Origin: Candidatus Avelusimicrobium luingense
GTDB lineage: Bacteria > Elusimicrobiota > Elusimicrobia > Elusimicrobiales > Elusimicrobiaceae
DNA length: 64,000 bases
NCBI GenBank assembly: GCA_900315845.1
Contig: OOHK01000006.1
Coordinates: forward strand, 1 to 64,000
Direction of reading: 5' to 3'
The position numbers and the translations under genes were made by a program. The notes beneath the pieces are model-generated. The model was not told the DNA's origin and did not search any database. It saw only the letters and a list, made by a program, of their open reading frames with translations. Of the stretch, positions 10,850 through 42,565 are shown in pieces; position 1 is the stretch's first letter, and every line of letters starts with the position of its first letter.

Positions 10850-11176
10850 TTAGGATTGGCTCTCCCTATGAATATCATATTCGGGGTGATGTTTTTTCAT
10901 GCGTTTCTCATAATAAAATTTACCGATGTTGGAACCACCGCATACTTTCCGTATAAGATAATCCCACTCTTTTTCCGTAAGTGTCGCTTCCAACCTGTCT
11001 CGCTCTCTCAGGAACTCTTTGGTACTTAAAATAGGGCTAATGAATTGCTCTAGCACGAAGTGTTTCCTAACCCGCCATGGAGCATTATTATAAACTTCTT
11101 GCCAATACTCACTCCACTCCGGACCTAAACGCATTCTAGCCATTTTGTTTACTATCTTCTGTATTCTTGTGCTCAT
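10850..11176 (-). CDS. 108-aa orphan protein controlled by a SAM-I riboswitch
   Basis: The charged, aromatic-rich soluble protein (MSTRIQKIVNKMARMRLGPEW at the N-terminus, IGKFYYEKRMKKHHPEYD near the C-terminus) matches no family I know and has no signal peptide or membrane helix. In particular it lacks the motifs of Vsr endonucleases, which might be expected beside a C5-methyltransferase. An ATGGAGG Shine-Dalgarno lies ahead of the ATG. The only gene-proximal regulatory element upstream is a SAM-I riboswitch with terminator, so it should be made when SAM is scarce. It follows the methyltransferase-endonuclease pair on the same strand but appears to have its own promoter. Confidence 0.7.
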   Translation of the reverse strand: MSTRIQKIVNKMARMRLGPEWSEYWQEVYNNAPWRVRKHFVLEQFISPILSTKEFLRERDRLEATLTEKEWDYLIRKVCGGSNIGKFYYEKRMKKHHPEYDIHRESQS

Positions 11177-11218
11177 AAAAATACCTCCATGTGGTTGTAT
11201 TATTTATCCCACAGAGAG

Positions 11219-11347
11219 GCAAAAGAAAACCCATCGTAAAGATGGGCTTAAATTCGTATATTCCCATCTTCCAAGCATTAGCACCTTGCCTTGCGGTAGG
11301 TTGCTGTGTAGTCATCGGGCTTGTCCCTCGTACACTCTCTATGGTAA
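11219..11347 (-). promoter_or_regulatory. SAM-I (S-box) riboswitch with expression-platform terminator, copy 1
   Basis: Read on the minus strand, the element has the S-box core blocks GAGGGACAAGCCCGATGA, CAGCAACC and AAGGTGCTAA in the right order. P2 (GTGT/ACAC) and P3 (ACCU/AGGU, with inner CC-GCAA-GG) are formed. The 3' flank AAGATGGG can close P1 or pair perfectly with CCCATCTT. CCCATCTT is also the 5' arm of a terminator hairpin (11227-11249) followed by TTTTCTTTT. That is the classic SAM-off arrangement: SAM stabilises P1 and lets the terminator form. A TATACT -10 lies just upstream. Confidence 0.88.
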
Positions 11348-35948: not shown

Positions 35949-36416
35949 TTATTTGCTCTTTACTAAAAAAATGCGATTGGATGGGAACACCTTAAATAGC
36001 ACATCTGTATCCCATTGGTTATGCGCAATATCTTTAGCAATTTCAGTAATGCGTTCTAGGGACATATTGGCAATATCCAGGGTTAAAGACTCCACATTAT
36101 AGACATTATCCCGATATGGAAACTTGCCTCCAAAACCTCTATTCCACGCATATTCCACGTTGTACTGGTCCACAAAAGATAAGTCCCGAAGTCCCAGTTT
36201 AATGGTGCGAGGAAATACTATCATCCCGCCGCCATAAAACCCAACTTGCCGATAAAAAGACTCCGCATTTTTGCCTGTGTTATATGCCATCATCCCATAC
36301 ACACCCGGATAATGAGGCCCACACGCAAAGAAACATTTGGTTATTTCTTCTATGTCTTTATCTATTTTAAAGGGGCCGTAACATCTTTTAAATTTCTGAT
36401 TATTTGTTTCAAACAT
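35949..36416 (-). CDS. 155-aa protein of unknown function (ClpX-like operon)
   Basis: A soluble protein without signal or membrane segment; notable stretches are FFACGPHYPGVYGMMAYNTG and GGGMIVFPRTIKLGLRD. No family is recognised. It follows the 263-aa gene by 3 bp and so belongs to the riboswitch-led operon. Confidence 0.6.
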   Translation of the reverse strand: MFETNNQKFKRCYGPFKIDKDIEEITKCFFACGPHYPGVYGMMAYNTGKNAESFYRQVGFYGGGMIVFPRTIKLGLRDLSFVDQYNVEYAWNRGFGGKFPYRDNVYNVESLTLDIANMSLERITEIAKDIAHNQWDTDVLFKVFPSNRIFLVKSK

Positions 36417-36419
36417 TGC

Positions 36420-37211
36420 TTACCTCTTAAAATAACTCCATATAGAATCTACATAGCCCTCTTTATTTCCCTCTTTTTTGAACCATTTCTGCCACCACGG
36501 TTTTCTATAGGCATTCGGGTTTTGTAAATAAATATCCAAACTAGCCCACTCTTCTCTCTCTAGCCCAAAATACCGAGATGAAGGACAAATTTCCAATTTT
36601 TGTTTCTGCATTGTGAAACTGGGGCGTAATTTTACCGCGCAACCATTACGTTTTAATAAGTCTGCCACAAAAGATAATACGTGCTTATGACTATAGTGCG
36701 CCCGCAAATAAATCACGTTTTTACATGCTTGGGCCGTCCGTATGTTAATTTTCCACGTAGCATCTTGAGCGGGAACGAGCGGATAAGGGCCAAATTGCGT
36801 AGTAATACTTTTAATGGCGCGGGTAGGCAAGGCATAGGGGCCGTCCTTTAACTCTTCCGTCTTAAATCCTTCAGTTACTTTGTAGCGTTCATTGGTTACG
36901 TGATTACTAAAAGGCGTGTGAATAGAATATTCAATTTCTTTATCCCGAAACGGCATATAACTTACCAGTTTATCTACTTGCTTAAATAAGTTGTTAAACC
37001 ACGGATGCACGTTAATTTTACCGGGAACCCACACGGTATGTTGTGGCGGCACAACAGTGCGGTGGTCTTTGAATTTCTTGCGTTGCACGAGTGGATCTTG
37101 TTCCGTGATATGATAGGGGCTCTCCACTATGGTACGGTAGAGAAGTGTGTCTCCCTCATAAAAAGACACATAACTTCTTTGTTCATCTACAGATACTTTT
37201 ACTTGATACAT
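36420..37211 (-). CDS. 263-aa protein of unknown function (ClpX-like operon)
   Basis: The protein begins MYQVKVSVDEQRSYVSFYEG, a beta-rich start with no signal peptide, and is rich in aromatic and basic residues (WKINIRTAQACKNVIYLRAH, KLEICPSSRYFGLEREEW). The C-terminus is basic (KPWWQKWFKKEGNKEG). I recognise no domain. It lies between the TM-TPR gene (10-bp gap) and the 155-aa gene (3-bp gap), so it is co-transcribed with the ClpX-like and LemA-like genes. AGGAGGA precedes the ATG. Confidence 0.62.
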   Translation of the reverse strand: MYQVKVSVDEQRSYVSFYEGDTLLYRTIVESPYHITEQDPLVQRKKFKDHRTVVPPQHTVWVPGKINVHPWFNNLFKQVDKLVSYMPFRDKEIEYSIHTPFSNHVTNERYKVTEGFKTEELKDGPYALPTRAIKSITTQFGPYPLVPAQDATWKINIRTAQACKNVIYLRAHYSHKHVLSFVADLLKRNGCAVKLRPSFTMQKQKLEICPSSRYFGLEREEWASLDIYLQNPNAYRKPWWQKWFKKEGNKEGYVDSIWSYFKR

Positions 37212-37221
37212 AGTTCCTCCT

Positions 37222-38805
37222 CTAGCTAAAAATCTTCCTCAATATCCGCTCAAAACCGCGCCCGGTGAACATATCTGCGCCATCGTATATATAGGTCAAA
37301 GAATCTCTATAATCTCTACAATCTTCATTAAGCGGACTTCGCACATGATTGTTATACTCTTCTTGCAAAGCCCACATTGATTTTTTATAACCGAGCGTTT
37401 TGTATAAGCTGTATAGAGCGCAATAAGACTTAGTGCCGTATTCCTCGTATTCTATGGCTTTTTTCATATCGGCAATAGCATGCTTGTTTTGTTTCAAATC
37501 CTTGTAACAAATGCCACGATTTACATAGAGGTCTTTGACATCTCCTCTGCTTAGAGAATACGAATTACGCAATGCTTGCGAAAACAGTTTTTCGGCCTCT
37601 TCCAAATTATTCTCTCTCCAGTAAATCACACCTAAATTATTAAGCGCATATACATCATCCGGCACGCGGTGAAGATATTCCTGAAAGTTGCTTTTGGCTA
37701 ACGAATATTGCCTTTGCTCTAAATATTTTTGAGCACGAATATTGTATTGGGGCGGCCTGCTAAAAAGTCCGCAAAATAACCCCAAGCATATCGTTAAAGC
37801 AATAAGTGTTCCTTTGAGCGGGAATGACCCTTTCCCCAAATCATATTCGCTCAAATTAGGCAGTTGGTAGTTTTCTTTTAAGATTTCTTCCACTTGGCTA
37901 AAATGAGACGTAATATCCGCTATCGTACTTAGCCCAACGATAAAATTACGTAGTTTAATACACGTAGCTTCGTTTTGCCAACCAAATACGTGGGCCCACT
38001 CAATTTTATGATCAGGGGTTACACCTACAACGGCATTTATTGTGTTACGCTTACCGTTTTGCCAATATTGTTGCCAATATATGCCTTGCGCGGATGTGGC
38101 ATTTTCCAGCAAGATGAAATTTAGTTTTATGTTTTTTTCACGACTCCAACAGTTATAGTCCCGAATTTCATCTTCTAATTGCTCCGCGTCTTCGCCCTTT
38201 ACGGTGCCGTATAATCCCTTGCGGCCATAGGACTGCAAGTGATACGTTTTAATGGTTTGTTCATCCAATTTTTCGCTTGCATATACGTTGGAAGAACGCA
38301 AGGTAGGGTTTTTGTACGAGCGGTACACATACTCGTAACTTGCGGTTTCATACGTACCGGGCCACGTAGTATATGTGCTATATCCAGGGTCTATAATTTC
38401 TCCTTCTGCTTCGCCTTCGTGGTCGGCTTCTTTCTCGTCTTCGTTGCCAAAGAGGGCTACATATTCCTGATATTCTTCCTCGTCAATCGAAAACGTATCC
38501 CCTTCGGCCACGGTTATTTCCCACTCTTCATCGTGCTCTACGGTTTCATATGTTTTTTTGCCTGTTTCTTCATCCTCGTGTTCTATTTTCTCAGTCCACG
38601 GTTCGTAATAGCGGGCCTCGGTTACGTACGTGCCCAAGATTTCTTCGTCTTCCGTTTTGCCCGATTCGCACACTTTGGCAAGGCCGATAACCATCCACGC
38701 CCCCAGGCAGCCCACCACTATCCCGAATATACCAAAGGACTCATAGCCCATTACGTGCGGCACTACAAGCAAAAAGCCAAGCGCATATAAGAACGCTATG
38801 GACAT
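37222..38805 (-). CDS. membrane protein with acidic middle domain and C-terminal TPRs
   Basis: The 527-residue protein has two N-terminal helices (about 3-20 and 24-43). Next comes a strongly acidic segment (about 50-130) that opens with a YVTEARYYEPW block, then a globular region (LKLRNFIV-type, about 180-300) and a third helix (LIALTICLGLFCGLF, about 348-363). TPR-like repeats follow to about 480 (YALNNLGVIYWRENNLEEAE). The topology puts the middle domain and TPRs on opposite sides of the membrane or in a hairpin. The YYEPW block has a feel of proteins encoded beside LemA genes elsewhere, but I cannot name the family. Its ATG coincides with the stop of the LemA-like gene, implying coupling. 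Confidence 0.7.
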   Translation of the reverse strand: MSIAFLYALGFLLVVPHVMGYESFGIFGIVVGCLGAWMVIGLAKVCESGKTEDEEILGTYVTEARYYEPWTEKIEHEDEETGKKTYETVEHDEEWEITVAEGDTFSIDEEEYQEYVALFGNEDEKEADHEGEAEGEIIDPGYSTYTTWPGTYETASYEYVYRSYKNPTLRSSNVYASEKLDEQTIKTYHLQSYGRKGLYGTVKGEDAEQLEDEIRDYNCWSREKNIKLNFILLENATSAQGIYWQQYWQNGKRNTINAVVGVTPDHKIEWAHVFGWQNEATCIKLRNFIVGLSTIADITSHFSQVEEILKENYQLPNLSEYDLGKGSFPLKGTLIALTICLGLFCGLFSRPPQYNIRAQKYLEQRQYSLAKSNFQEYLHRVPDDVYALNNLGVIYWRENNLEEAEKLFSQALRNSYSLSRGDVKDLYVNRGICYKDLKQNKHAIADMKKAIEYEEYGTKSYCALYSLYKTLGYKKSMWALQEEYNNHVRSPLNEDCRDYRDSLTYIYDGADMFTGRGFERILRKIFS

Positions 38806-39302
38806 TAGATATTCTCCTTGCCGGTGGCATATACGTCGGCTGTATGGTCCGACTTAATGACCGTAATTTTGATTTCCTGCGCGTTAGGCAATAATACACA
38901 CGCGGGAAAACTTTGGATAAACGTTTTATGTTCATTATGGCGGGCTACCAGTAACCGCTGATGACTGAAAAACTGTTCACGGTTAATTTCAATAGCCGTG
39001 GCTAATTGACGCAAAACAGACGTATCAAGCGGCGGGTTATGCTCTACAATAAACCGTATATCCTTGCTTTGGTAACGTCCGGAAATAAGTTTGGGATAAA
39101 TCTCCTTAAACGTCTCTAAGTACGTATCGGACACGTGCGTGATTTGCTTAATAACCTTCCACATTTTGTCAAAGTTGGCCTCGCACACTTCCTGTTGCGC
39201 TTTGACCAGATTGCGAAGGCGGATTTCCGTGTTGCTCACGGAAATGAAATACCCAAGTGCTACTACTGCGACTAATAAAACAACTACCATTGTTGCTGTC
39301 AT
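38805..39302 (-). CDS. LemA-like membrane-anchored helical protein
   Basis: The 165-residue protein has one N-terminal helix (VVVLLVAVVALGYFISV) followed by NTEIRLRNLVKAQQEVCEANFDKMW, which mirrors the LemA signature of an N-TM protein with NxLVxxxxxVxxxxxxI. Later RLLVARHNEHKTFIQSFPACVL matches the LemA box with Arg, Asn and FP. LemA proteins form elongated helical bundles outside the inner membrane, with poorly understood roles. This one is diverged and slightly short. It lies 11 bp after the ClpX-like gene and shares one base with the TM-TPR gene. Confidence 0.7.
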   Translation of the reverse strand: MTATMVVVLLVAVVALGYFISVSNTEIRLRNLVKAQQEVCEANFDKMWKVIKQITHVSDTYLETFKEIYPKLISGRYQSKDIRFIVEHNPPLDTSVLRQLATAIEINREQFFSHQRLLVARHNEHKTFIQSFPACVLLPNAQEIKITVIKSDHTADVYATGKENI

Positions 39303-40687: not shown

Positions 40688-40737
40688 AATTTACCTCGTA
40701 ATATAAGTTCAAAAATCTTATTTTGTATACGGAGCTT

Positions 40738-40863
40738 TTATCCGTGATAAATCTCCCAATCACTATATCCAAAAGAATCTTCCTTCATCGGTTCTGTCTC
40801 TAACTGCGTATAAGGAACCACCCATACTGTTACATTGCGATTTTGCTTACATTTTTTTGCCAT
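40738..40863 (-). CDS. 41-aa small protein directly behind a SAM-I riboswitch
   Basis: The ORF reads MAKKCKQNRNVTVWVVPYTQ and ends SFGYSDWEIYHG. The start at 40863 is chosen because GGAGAGG is well spaced before it; a longer frame reaching 40929 would start inside the terminator and is rejected. The Shine-Dalgarno is locked in a 9-bp hairpin. No family is recognised. It may be a leader gene whose translation opens the way to the ClpX-like gene. Confidence 0.6.
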   Translation of the reverse strand: MAKKCKQNRNVTVWVVPYTQLETEPMKEDSFGYSDWEIYHG

Positions 40864-40869
40864 AAAAAA

Positions 40870-40902
40870 CACCTCTCCTTTGGATTTCCCATTGGAGAGG
40901 TG
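40870..40902 (-). promoter_or_regulatory. SD-sequestering hairpin
   Basis: CACCTCTCC pairs perfectly with GGAGAGGTG over 9 bp around a 15-nt loop, hiding the Shine-Dalgarno of the 41-aa ORF. The loop contains another AATGGG, related to the riboswitch P1 strand. Confidence 0.7.
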
Positions 40903-40905
40903 GAT

Positions 40906-41048
40906 AAAAAAAGAACCCATTGTCTCCAATGGGTTCTAACATACTTCAAATTTATTCTAGCTCCCATTGTGTTCGAGCTTTAGCACCTTGCCCTTTGGTA
41001 GGTTGCTGTGTAGTCAACGGGCTCGTCCCTCGTACACTCTTAATGGAA
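40906..41048 (-). promoter_or_regulatory. SAM-I riboswitch with terminator, copy 2
   Basis: Read on the minus strand: P1 TTCCATT/AATGGGA (7 bp), P2 GTGT/ACAC, S-box core GAGGGACGAGCCCG, CAGCAACC, P3 ACCU/AGGU and AAGGTGCTAA. The P1 3' strand CAATGGG can pair with CCCATTG, the 5' arm of an 11-bp terminator stem (40912-40937) followed by TTTTTTT. The aptamer closely resembles copy 1 at 11.2 kb, while the flanking genes differ. Confidence 0.88.
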
Positions 41049-41236
41049 TTTCCGTTATTTTCGGAAGTCCCCTTATCCTATTCTTACGTCGGTATCTATC
41101 AAGATACCATCTCTGTCTTTTGTTAGGATTTGGGGAACCTTATAACTGTGCAGTCGTCTGCACTATAAATCTTCCTCAAAATAACACTAATTTTTTGATA
41201 AAACGACCTATTTCTGCCGTCTTATCTTATAGTAAT
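41049..41236 (-). other. long 5' leader between promoter and riboswitch
   Basis: The 180-nt leader has hairpins GTGCAG-ACGA-CTGCAC and GGTATC-TTGATA-GATACC. A GAGGAAG is followed by a 7-codon GTG ORF (MQTTAQL) in the same stretch as the first hairpin. Significance unknown. Confidence 0.45.
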
Positions 41237-41265
41237 AATATAGCAATTTCGTCGATATTTGTCAA
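41237..41265 (-). promoter_or_regulatory. strong sigma70-type promoter of the riboswitch-ClpX operon
   Basis: A consensus -35 TTGACA, a 17-bp spacer and -10 TATATT read toward riboswitch copy 2. Confidence 0.8.
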
Positions 41266-41449
41266 TACCTCAATCTTGCAAACAATGTCCAAACCGCCGC
41301 CATTTCACTAATTTCCTTTGGCATATTATCCATCCTTGATACTTATAGTATATTATACGAAAGCGACAACATGTTGTCTAATCGGCATATTTCCTTATAA
41401 TGCCCCCATATTCATAATTTCTTCAGAAGTATTTGCAGAAAAGGAAATG

Positions 41450-42565
41450 CTAATTTAATTTGGCTTTGAAATTTTTATAGGCAGTGGCGGCCAAAACAAG
41501 TGCCATCCCCAGCAAGATACTGAAATATTGCCAAAAGAACGAATAATCGCCACCTTTTAAGATGATGTTGCGGAAATTGGTACAGGCATACATGAGCGGG
41601 TTGAGGTAGCATAGCCACCGGAAGCCTTCCGGGATGTTGGCTACCGGGAAAAACACGCCGGACAGTAAAATAGCCGGCAGTAATATCAATACTCCCCCCA
41701 TCATGGCTTGTTGTTGGGTGTTGGCAATGGTACTGATGAGGGTAGCCACGGATAACGCACAAGCGGCCAACGCTATACCGTTAAGGGCGAATTGCCAAAC
41801 CGTTCCTCGGTATGCAATGCCAAATCCTAACACGCCTATAGATAGCATTAGCATTACTACTCCAATACCGATAAAGAAGTACGGTAACACTTTCCCTAGC
41901 AAAATATCTGCCGTAGAAGCCGGAGAGGATATCAGTTTTTCCATGGTTCCCATTTCTTTTTCTTTGGTAATGGCCATGCTCCCTACAATCATCAAAATAA
42001 TAAAACTGGTCATGACAAGAAGTGCCGGCACCATAAAAGCCGCCGTGCTCATTTGCGGATTAAACAAAATACGTGTATCTAATACAAGCCGCGGCTGCTC
42101 GCCCAACCGGTACCCGTGGCTGGCCGCTACACGCGCTAAAATTTGGCTAATATACGCATTTACCTGTTGAGCACGCTGGGCGTTGGTAGCATTGATAAGC
42201 AGTTGAATAGGTTTATTTTGCCGCTCTAAGGCATATTCAAATCCTTGCTCGGGGGCCACCAATACCGCTTCTGCCTTGTAAGTGGTAAGCAGTGCGGTAG
42301 GATCAGAAACATTAGTTCCGTCTATGTGGTGCACTTGCTTAAACCAACGGGAAGCAACTGCCCGCGTTTGCACTTCCCGTGCAATCGCAGACGGTTTGCT
42401 GACAATCACCATTTCTATATTTTTTACTTCACTGGTTAGCGCAAGCCCAAACATGGTTAGTTGAACTATCGGAACAAAAAAGATAGCCACAATCATCTTA
42501 GGATCACGAAAGATTTGCACAAATTCTTTGCGAATTAGCCCTCTTATAATGCGTTTGTGTATCAT
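41450..42565 (-). CDS. ABC-2 type exporter permease (YbhR/YhhJ-like)
   Basis: The 371-residue protein has the ABC-2 layout: one N-terminal helix (MIVAIFFVPIVQLTMFGLAL), a large periplasmic domain (about 45-170), then five C-terminal helices including the AITKEKEMGTMEKLISSPAS coupling loop. It forms half of the membrane channel with the preceding permease, powered by the two ATPases. It overlaps the upstream permease by 4 bp. Its last codons and flank are the source of repeats at 15.3 and 35.8 kb. Confidence 0.93.
   Translation of the reverse strand: MIHKRIIRGLIRKEFVQIFRDPKMIVAIFFVPIVQLTMFGLALTSEVKNIEMVIVSKPSAIAREVQTRAVASRWFKQVHHIDGTNVSDPTALLTTYKAEAVLVAPEQGFEYALERQNKPIQLLINATNAQRAQQVNAYISQILARVAASHGYRLGEQPRLVLDTRILFNPQMSTAAFMVPALLVMTSFIILMIVGSMAITKEKEMGTMEKLISSPASTADILLGKVLPYFFIGIGVVMLMLSIGVLGFGIAYRGTVWQFALNGIALAACALSVATLISTIANTQQQAMMGGVLILLPAILLSGVFFPVANIPEGFRWLCYLNPLMYACTNFRNIILKGGDYSFFWQYFSILLGMALVLAATAYKNFKAKLN

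Follow-up and report, generated by a model that had tools for sequence, protein, structure and literature searches.

A predicted SAM-I riboswitch with a terminator and a Shine-Dalgarno hairpin in series upstream of a ClpX-like operon in Elusimicrobiaceae

SAM-I switches are textbook regulators of methionine genes, and by their standard logic they are OFF at high SAM. What, then, could such a switch regulate upstream of a short open reading frame and a ClpX-like AAA+ gene, with two further hairpins between the aptamer and the start codon? We considered a locus of this kind in Candidatus Avelusimicrobium luingense. The window, that is, the whole stretch of DNA analysed, comprises 64,000 nucleotides, and positions are counted from its first letter. 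The reading that we favour, with a probability of about 0.64, is that a SAM-I OFF switch, equipped with two serial locks, stands before a 41-aa ORF and a ClpX-like operon.

According to the initial annotation, a ClpX-like gene is preceded by a second SAM-I site whose controls are stacked, and this site was borne out by the RF00162 search: the aptamer of the reported copy (copy 2) scores above the gathering threshold (Table 1; E 2.5e-11) and covers model positions 1-108 of 108. The promoter, the 180-nt leader, the aptamer, the terminator and the Shine-Dalgarno (SD) hairpin follow each other in series where they had been annotated. The AATGGG of P1 is repeated in the loop of the SD hairpin, as had been noticed earlier, and CCCATT occurs also in the 5' arm of the terminator. 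The latter is the sole terminator-like site within 40700-41460 (0.4 +/- 0.8 in shuffles).

Table 1. Positions of the features of the two switch copies of the window and of the genes behind them
Feature	Position	Strand	Evidence or remark
Upstream promoter-like site TAGACA-17-TATAAT	41352..41380	-	11/12 consensus positions
Palindrome GACAACATGTTGTC	within 41364-41379		overlaps the upstream promoter-like site
Main promoter-like site TTGACA-17-TATATT	41237..41265	-	11/12 consensus positions
Stem-loop at the leader 5' end, GATAAGACG...CGTTTTATC	41197..41228	-	leader fold
Conserved structured leader element	41041..41188	-	12-sequence alignment, pair counts, model match
SAM-I (S box) aptamer, copy 2	40961..41049	-	RF00162, 59.8 bits (gathering 44.4)
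Intrinsic terminator T of copy 2	40912..40937	-	11 pairs and T tail; 5' arm complementary to P1 3' strand
SD hairpin H2 of copy 2	40870..40902	-	9 outer pairs, -19.1 kcal/mol; SD GGAGAGGTG in 3' arm
41-aa ORF	40738..40863	-	C-terminus FGYSDWEIYHG here, FGYNDWDIYHG in several relatives
ClpX-like AAA+ protein, 457 aa	39314..40687	-	own N-terminal domain
165-aa protein	38805..39302	-	N-terminal hydrophobic segment; phrog_1383 family
527-aa protein	37222..38805	-	TPR repeats
263-aa protein	36420..37211	-	no family match over cut-off
155-aa protein	35949..36416	-	no family match over cut-off
SAM-I aptamer, copy 1	11261..11347	-	RF00162, 53.8 bits; type B wiring
Terminator of copy 1	11227..11249	-	
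SD hairpin H2 of copy 1	11182..11221	-	5' arm complementary to P1 5' strand and J1/2
108-aa ORF behind copy 1	10850..11176	-	no family match over cut-off

The region 41060-40860 folds with a z-score of -5.5, none of 200 shuffles being as good, and the entire 391-nt leader with a z-score of -10.2 (0 of 100 shuffles). A start-proximal hairpin of -9 kcal/mol or lower was found in 5 of the 32 ordinary ORFs of the window (best -17.7), compared with 16 of 19 switch sites of type A and 12 of 17 of type B (the types are defined below), the search ranges in the two groups being similar, not identical. A chance hairpin was rejected in view of the shuffle folds and of this control with ordinary ORFs.

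Upstream of the aptamer, six promoter-like sites were counted on both strands of 40700-41460, compared with 2.8 +/- 1.4 in shuffles. Palindromes similar to the stem-loop at the 5' end of the leader are seen by eye in other type-A leaders. Palindromes with TGTCG half-sites were observed by eye at or near promoters, at 41364-41379 and upstream of the aptamers in L003, L011, L040 and L045; a possible interpretation is the operator of a shared regulator. A regulator-like gene, forming one BLAST cluster, is the nearest larger upstream gene on the same strand in 14 of 19 type-A sites, and the two members tested match HTH_11 or WYL. In the reported locus an ORF of 20 codons (MPKEISEMAAVWTLFARLRY, 41324-41262, minus strand) runs into the main promoter; by eye it resembles the start of the regulator gene elsewhere and may be its remnant.

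The other SAM-I site of the window is copy 1 (Table 1), and a search of the whole assembly (G000; 1.46 Mb in 8 contigs, 94.5% complete) with RF00162 yielded copy 3 at C7:155661. The aptamers are 83.5% identical between copies 1 and 2, 91.6% between copies 1 and 3, and 80.7% between copies 2 and 3; judging from these pairwise identities, a shared ancestry of the three switches is likely.

RF00162 matches were found in 10 of 61 genomes in one search, in 29 of 90 genomes of the family (35 sites, 34 of them above the cut-off), and in 32 of 149 genomes of the order, the filters in searches of more than 40 genomes being stricter, so that weak sites can be lost. Since 61 of the 90 family genomes have no site, the switch looks sporadic. 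The analysed set comprises 36 sites from 30 genomes, namely the 35 sites of the family genomes, among them one just below the cut-off (G027, 43.5 bits), and one site of another family from the search of 61 genomes (G052). Three hits lie outside this set. Two sites in G115, read by eye, have the same layout as the analysed switches. The third is a sub-threshold SAM-I-like hit in G148 (31.4 bits; L191:2452-2557), where no such expression platform was found. By eye, the gene that follows it is a MoxR-like AAA gene, and the 3' end of P1 carries an SD-like stretch; the hit may be a translational SAM switch.

The layout is conserved throughout the set. Behind each of the 36 aptamers stands a terminator hairpin whose tail is T-rich, with at least four T among the first six positions in 35 sites. 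A hairpin adjoining the start was found in 35 of 36 sites, the exception being the type-A site of G072, where the 5' arm is missing. The SD core lies inside the stem, in the 3' arm, in 33 sites. In two type-B sites (G000:C7 and G084:C1) the hairpin found leaves a part of the SD outside, and in G015 the hairpin is present with no ATG behind it. The antiterminator duplex has a mean energy of -11.9 kcal/mol in type A and -14.0 kcal/mol in type B (-12.5 in the reported copy). At the level of the sequence, the aptamer, the terminator, the SD hairpin, their complementarity and their conservation are established.

The sites were typed by the sequence of the 5' arm and loop of the terminator, which gave 19 sites of type A, including the reported copy, and 17 of type B, including copies 1 and 3; for G067 and G070 the final typing by the terminator loop replaces an earlier type-A call. 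The mean aptamer identity is 87.5% within type A, 88.7% within type B and 84.3% between the types.

The proposed mechanism is as follows. We infer that the aptamer binds SAM and that the response is a closing one. Binding would close P1 and set free the 5' arm of the terminator, which then forms; a polymerase that reads through the terminator would meet the hairpin hiding the SD. At low SAM the 3' strand of P1 would pair with the terminator 5' arm as an antiterminator. In that state the SD would also stay open, since the 5' arm of its hairpin would find a partner upstream. The aptamer, the antiterminator formed by the P1 3' strand and the terminator 5' arm, the terminator and the predicted OFF state at high SAM are those of SAM-I switches with an intrinsic terminator (RF00162). 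Unlike in the standard arrangement, here the terminator is followed by an SD-hiding hairpin with a 5' arm complementary to the aptamer or to the terminator, and none of the examined genes behind the sites is a sulfur-metabolism gene.

In type B the upstream partner at low SAM would be the aptamer's own P1 5'/J1-2 strand, to which the SD-hairpin 5' arm is complementary. The mean energy of this duplex is -16.8 kcal/mol, versus -5.6 for shuffled letters (standard deviation of the shuffle means 0.6) and -15.9 when strands are crossed between sites (own versus crossed, permutation p 0.016; this and the other permutation p values for arm pairing ignore kinship among the sites). When the stem letters are fixed and the unpaired ones shuffled, the energies are -15.9 versus -12.3, with 4 of 17 sites at or below 2.5%. 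A part of the arm complementarity arises because J1/2 and the terminator loop resemble an SD. In all 17 sites the 5' half of the aptamer, taken against the terminator 3' arm together with the SD-hairpin arm, does better than at least 99 of 100 shuffles (mean z -5.0). In G052 fourteen matching bases are found despite a changed P1/P2 sequence.

Two-state folding was modelled in ensembles where four forced P1 pairs stand in for SAM, and where ligand energy, Mg2+ and pseudoknots are left out. In these type-B models forcing P1 raises the mean probability of the terminator from 0.22 to 0.98 and lowers the mean SD exposure from 0.51 to 0.01; in copy 1 the respective changes are 0.00 to 0.96 and 0.40 to 0.01. 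Without constraint, the P1 5' strand and the hairpin arm pair with a mean probability of 0.70, and at least 0.74 in 13 of 17 sites. Several sites deviate in the folding model: G027 and G070 switch neither lock, G052 switches the SD only, its terminator probability being 0.99 both ways, and G109 and G096:C6 have little pairing between the P1 5' strand and the arm. Transversion of the RTGG of the loop lowers this pairing from 0.65 to 0.23. The mean ligand-free terminator probability then rises only from 0.22 to 0.44, and it is still at most 0.03 in 6 of 17 sites, copy 1 included.

In type A the arm of the SD hairpin best matches the 5' arm and loop of the terminator, and the P1 5' strand is second. 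In the proposed mechanism these would be, in this order, the partners of the arm, with co-transcriptional release of the SD. The duplex of the terminator arm and loop with the hairpin arm has an energy of -17.7, versus -4.6 in shuffles (standard deviation 0.6) and -16.4 when crossed between sites (permutation p 0.003, 17 non-identical sites). Seven contiguous positions pair in all 19 sites, and one column contains T-A in 11, C-G in 5 and T-G in 3 of them; this covariation is not independent, because the same terminator letters pair with the terminator 3' arm. Shuffling of unpaired letters gives -17.9 versus -12.4 for the 18 sites with the hairpin, 9 of them at or below 5%; for the terminator-arm match of the reported copy, 8% of such shuffles equal it. 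Between the arm and the P1 5' strand the duplex is weaker, at -10.4, own strands being no better than crossed ones (permutation p 0.61). The 5' half of the aptamer against the terminator 3' arm and the hairpin arm beats 99 of 100 shuffles in 4 of 19 sites (mean z -2.0).

At the modelled equilibrium, type-A sites stay largely closed. The mean ligand-free probability of the terminator is 0.97, the SD hairpin stays formed in most sites, and the mean SD exposure is 0.08 ligand-free and 0.07 with P1 forced. For the reported copy the ligand-free terminator probability is 0.99, and the SD exposure is 0.00, unchanged with P1 forced. Since both locks of this copy stay shut at equilibrium, release of its SD would have to be kinetic. 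One possibility is that SAM acts on the terminator alone and that the SD hairpin of the reported copy is always formed and sets a low translation rate. We consider this rather unlikely, although the equilibrium folds of type A do retain the hairpin with or without P1, and there is a precedent in Bc1, where, according to the available part of PMC11218506, terminator T2 is formed whatever the ligand. Against it, the match of the hairpin loop to the terminator 5' arm is kept in 19 of 19 type-A sites, and in the nascent chain of copy 2 the arm is paired upstream. At 172 nt, when the SD is not yet made, the minimum-energy fold has this upstream pairing; the arm pairs with the P1 5' strand with probability 0.70 and with the terminator arm with probability 0.11, the terminator probability being 0.46. 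For all 19 type-A sites at the nascent stage the respective values are 0.55, 0.12 and, on average, 0.79. We regard SD release in the reported copy as a plausible proposal. The suggestion in the initial annotation that one switch may control both termination and translation finds support at the family level in sequence and folding, with type B as the clearest case; for the reported copy the support is indirect, as its ligand-free equilibrium keeps both locks shut.

The second hairpin might also be a second intrinsic terminator, with transcription control alone and with the SD falling into the stem through the nearness of the gene start. Indeed, at least four T directly follow the stem in 15 of 19 type-A sites. 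However, 10 of 17 type-B sites have the hairpin with no T run behind it, and in 8 of these 10 the SD is in the stem. The terminator scan passes over the hairpin as well, though the hairpin may be excluded in any case by the scan's maximum loop of 8. On balance, this explanation is improbable, and we retain the reading with two different locks in series.

Between the promoter and the aptamer, 12 type-A leaders have a structured element in common (Table 1), with 20 pairs and 94.6% of cells paired. Five pairs are changed on both sides, compared with 2.1 +/- 0.9 in shuffles (none of 500 as many), and further pair types are no more numerous than in shuffles (86 of 500); these counts are favoured because the structure came from the same alignment. 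The model of the element has 13 matches in 90 genomes, every one directly upstream of a type-A aptamer: the 12 used to build the model and G080, a copy of G077, so that no new member was gained and the element was seen nowhere else in these genomes. No Rfam family matches it above the cut-off. In a relaxed Rfam scan of the leader, beyond SAM, four matches far below the cut-offs were obtained, the best being PyrR (21.3 of 54 bits), which covers the part with the terminator and hairpin. By eye, a different hairpin occurs in the leaders of G024, G096:C32, G081 and G034, and the outer stem alone in those of G098 and G111. Covariation models for whole riboswitches have been described (PMC13273304, available part). 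The leader element could be a second regulatory RNA.

In the proposed mechanism the switch would gate the 41-aa peptide and, through its expression, the ClpX-like operon. The C-terminus GYNDWDIYHG or a close form of it is encoded in 12 of 19 type-A sites, and the median pairwise dN/dS of these 12 ORFs is 0.32 (49 usable of 66 pairs). The ORF is cut short in G019 and G068 and lacks the ATG in G015; the other four type-A sites have ORFs of 39-50 codons without the C-terminal motif. Coupling of the AAA+ gene to the peptide is something that we infer. Its association with the switch is close: 17 homologues with E < 1e-140 were found in the 90 genomes (those of G077 and G080 are nearly identical), and all 17 are preceded by a type-A switch. 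The contigs of two further matches (36% identity) are without an RF00162 match, and G024 and G111 have type-A sites without the AAA+ gene. A 170-aa protein, forming one BLAST group, is encoded at 11 loci of type A and also behind a single switch of type B.

The name ClpX given in the initial annotation stands as a likeness of the AAA+ core. A 12-sequence alignment contains what we take to be the Walker A and B motifs, the GYxG pore loop, [VI]GF in the position of the IGF loop, and GARGL, and the best 50 structural matches listed for the model (pLDDT 73.9) are ClpX chains or ClpXP complexes. It does not stand as a family assignment: the cut-offs were missed (220 of 359 and 190 of 370.75 bits, NCBIfam equivalog). 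The protein differs from the ClpX unfoldase also by its own N-terminal domain, the absence of a match to the ClpX zinc domain, and its occurrence in 17 of 90 genomes. No protein of the same genome scores above the ClpX cut-off in the assembly at its 94.5% completeness. One ClpP-like gene is present there, at C2:137646 (270 of 308.6 bits), and 5 of 14 control genomes pass that cut-off. Among the matches listed for the AAA+ alignment against genome contigs are ClpX-type proteins of unrelated phyla, the best at 36% identity; against viral contigs there were four weak relatives (28-35% identity).

The 165-aa protein had been labelled LemA-type, and this label was not upheld, as no PF04011 match was obtained at E <= 10 in the Pfam scan and the genome search. 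Two other genes of the same genome exceed the LemA cut-off (200 and 81 bits), and the profile of the 165-aa protein gave no alignment with these LemA proteins, the profiles being shallow. In structural matching of its low-confidence model (pLDDT 61.6) LemA 2etd ranks second, with E 0.65, which is not significant. The best family in the libraries scanned is phrog_1383 (E 4.8e-27). The protein has no match among plasmids at E 1e-3, and its family has nothing below E 0.2 among PDB sequences and no relatives among the viral contigs searched; the family also matches Lak phages. In the Tenacibaculum jumbo phage PTm1 two near neighbours, gp155 and gp157, are homologous to the 165-aa protein and to residues 11-344 of the protein that follows it. 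A phage operon was considered and rejected: no AAA+ gene is annotated in the 12.4-kb PTm1 stretch shown, where most genes are 'hypothetical'.

The genes adjoining the switches vary between sites. A 304-aa family (L019:12571-13482 and seven homologues), with sub-threshold DnaA-like (E 0.07) and zinc-ribbon (E 0.04) matches, is found in 8 of 149 genomes of the order, two of the matches being partial, and in all 8 cases beside a SAM-I switch: seven of type B and one in G115, which was not typed. By eye, a formylglutamate-amidohydrolase-like gene lies behind a G115 site. A SAM-I switch of the ordinary kind, serving methionine or SAM metabolism and standing here by happenstance, would agree with the aptamer, a standard member of its family. 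However, none of the three sites of the genome is on the contig of metK (C8:146211), and the genes examined are small proteins without known role, the AAA+ operon, the 304-aa family and the amidohydrolase-like gene of G115. We consider such an origin highly improbable. A metK or methionine operon as the target was rejected, as none of the three sites of the genome is near metK.

The window carries type III and type II restriction-modification genes, and type I restriction, GmrSD-like, Fic and IetA-like genes lie near some switch sites elsewhere. Of 10 hand-picked proteins that were tested, 9 have a hit, and the remaining one, without a hit, is integrase-like by eye; a link of the switch sites with defence, drawn from such hand-picked neighbours, is a lead only.

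Other systems with double control provide a comparison. According to the available part of PMC11218506, the c-di-GMP-I riboswitch Bc1 of Bacillus thuringiensis likewise has a long expression platform with serial hairpins, two in series, and double control of transcription and translation. It differs in its ligand, in that its control is incoherent and in that one terminator is unresponsive, whereas coherent closing of both locks is predicted by the model here, in type B. The same part cites ribB and lysC of E. coli as examples of coherent dual control, again with one ligand and two control levels; there the second level is Rho (ribB) or RNase E (lysC), as opposed to an intrinsic terminator and a separate SD hairpin here.

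The initial statement that no SAM riboswitch leading such an operon was known is uncontradicted: in the accessible text of the open-licence PMC literature no SAM riboswitch was found before a ClpX-type operon. Texts that name both a SAM riboswitch and ClpX do not, in their accessible parts, place such a switch before clpX, and the open-licence PMC texts on riboswitches with Elusimicrobia or anti-phage defence contain, as far as accessible, no description of such a system. The site is confirmed as a real SAM-I site, and its layout as one without a description found in this open-licence literature.

Phage enzymes that destroy SAM are known (PMC7877911, available part). A more speculative suggestion, which we regard as unlikely, is that within one bacterial order the SAM-I family came to serve as a low-SAM alarm for sporadic accessory islands. 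The two-lock switch would keep the ClpX-like operon and several unrelated cassettes of small genes shut and open them when SAM falls, for example when an invading phage destroys or consumes SAM to escape methylation-based restriction.

The expression platform appears to join intrinsic termination and hiding of the SD in one fold, and a natural two-lock design with many variants would help to test why tight OFF states evolve. The switch family, with its 36 sites, precedes sporadic genes, none of those examined belonging to the methionine pathway, and the two gene families tied to it (17 of 17 and 8 of 8 found) point to functions that matter at low SAM.
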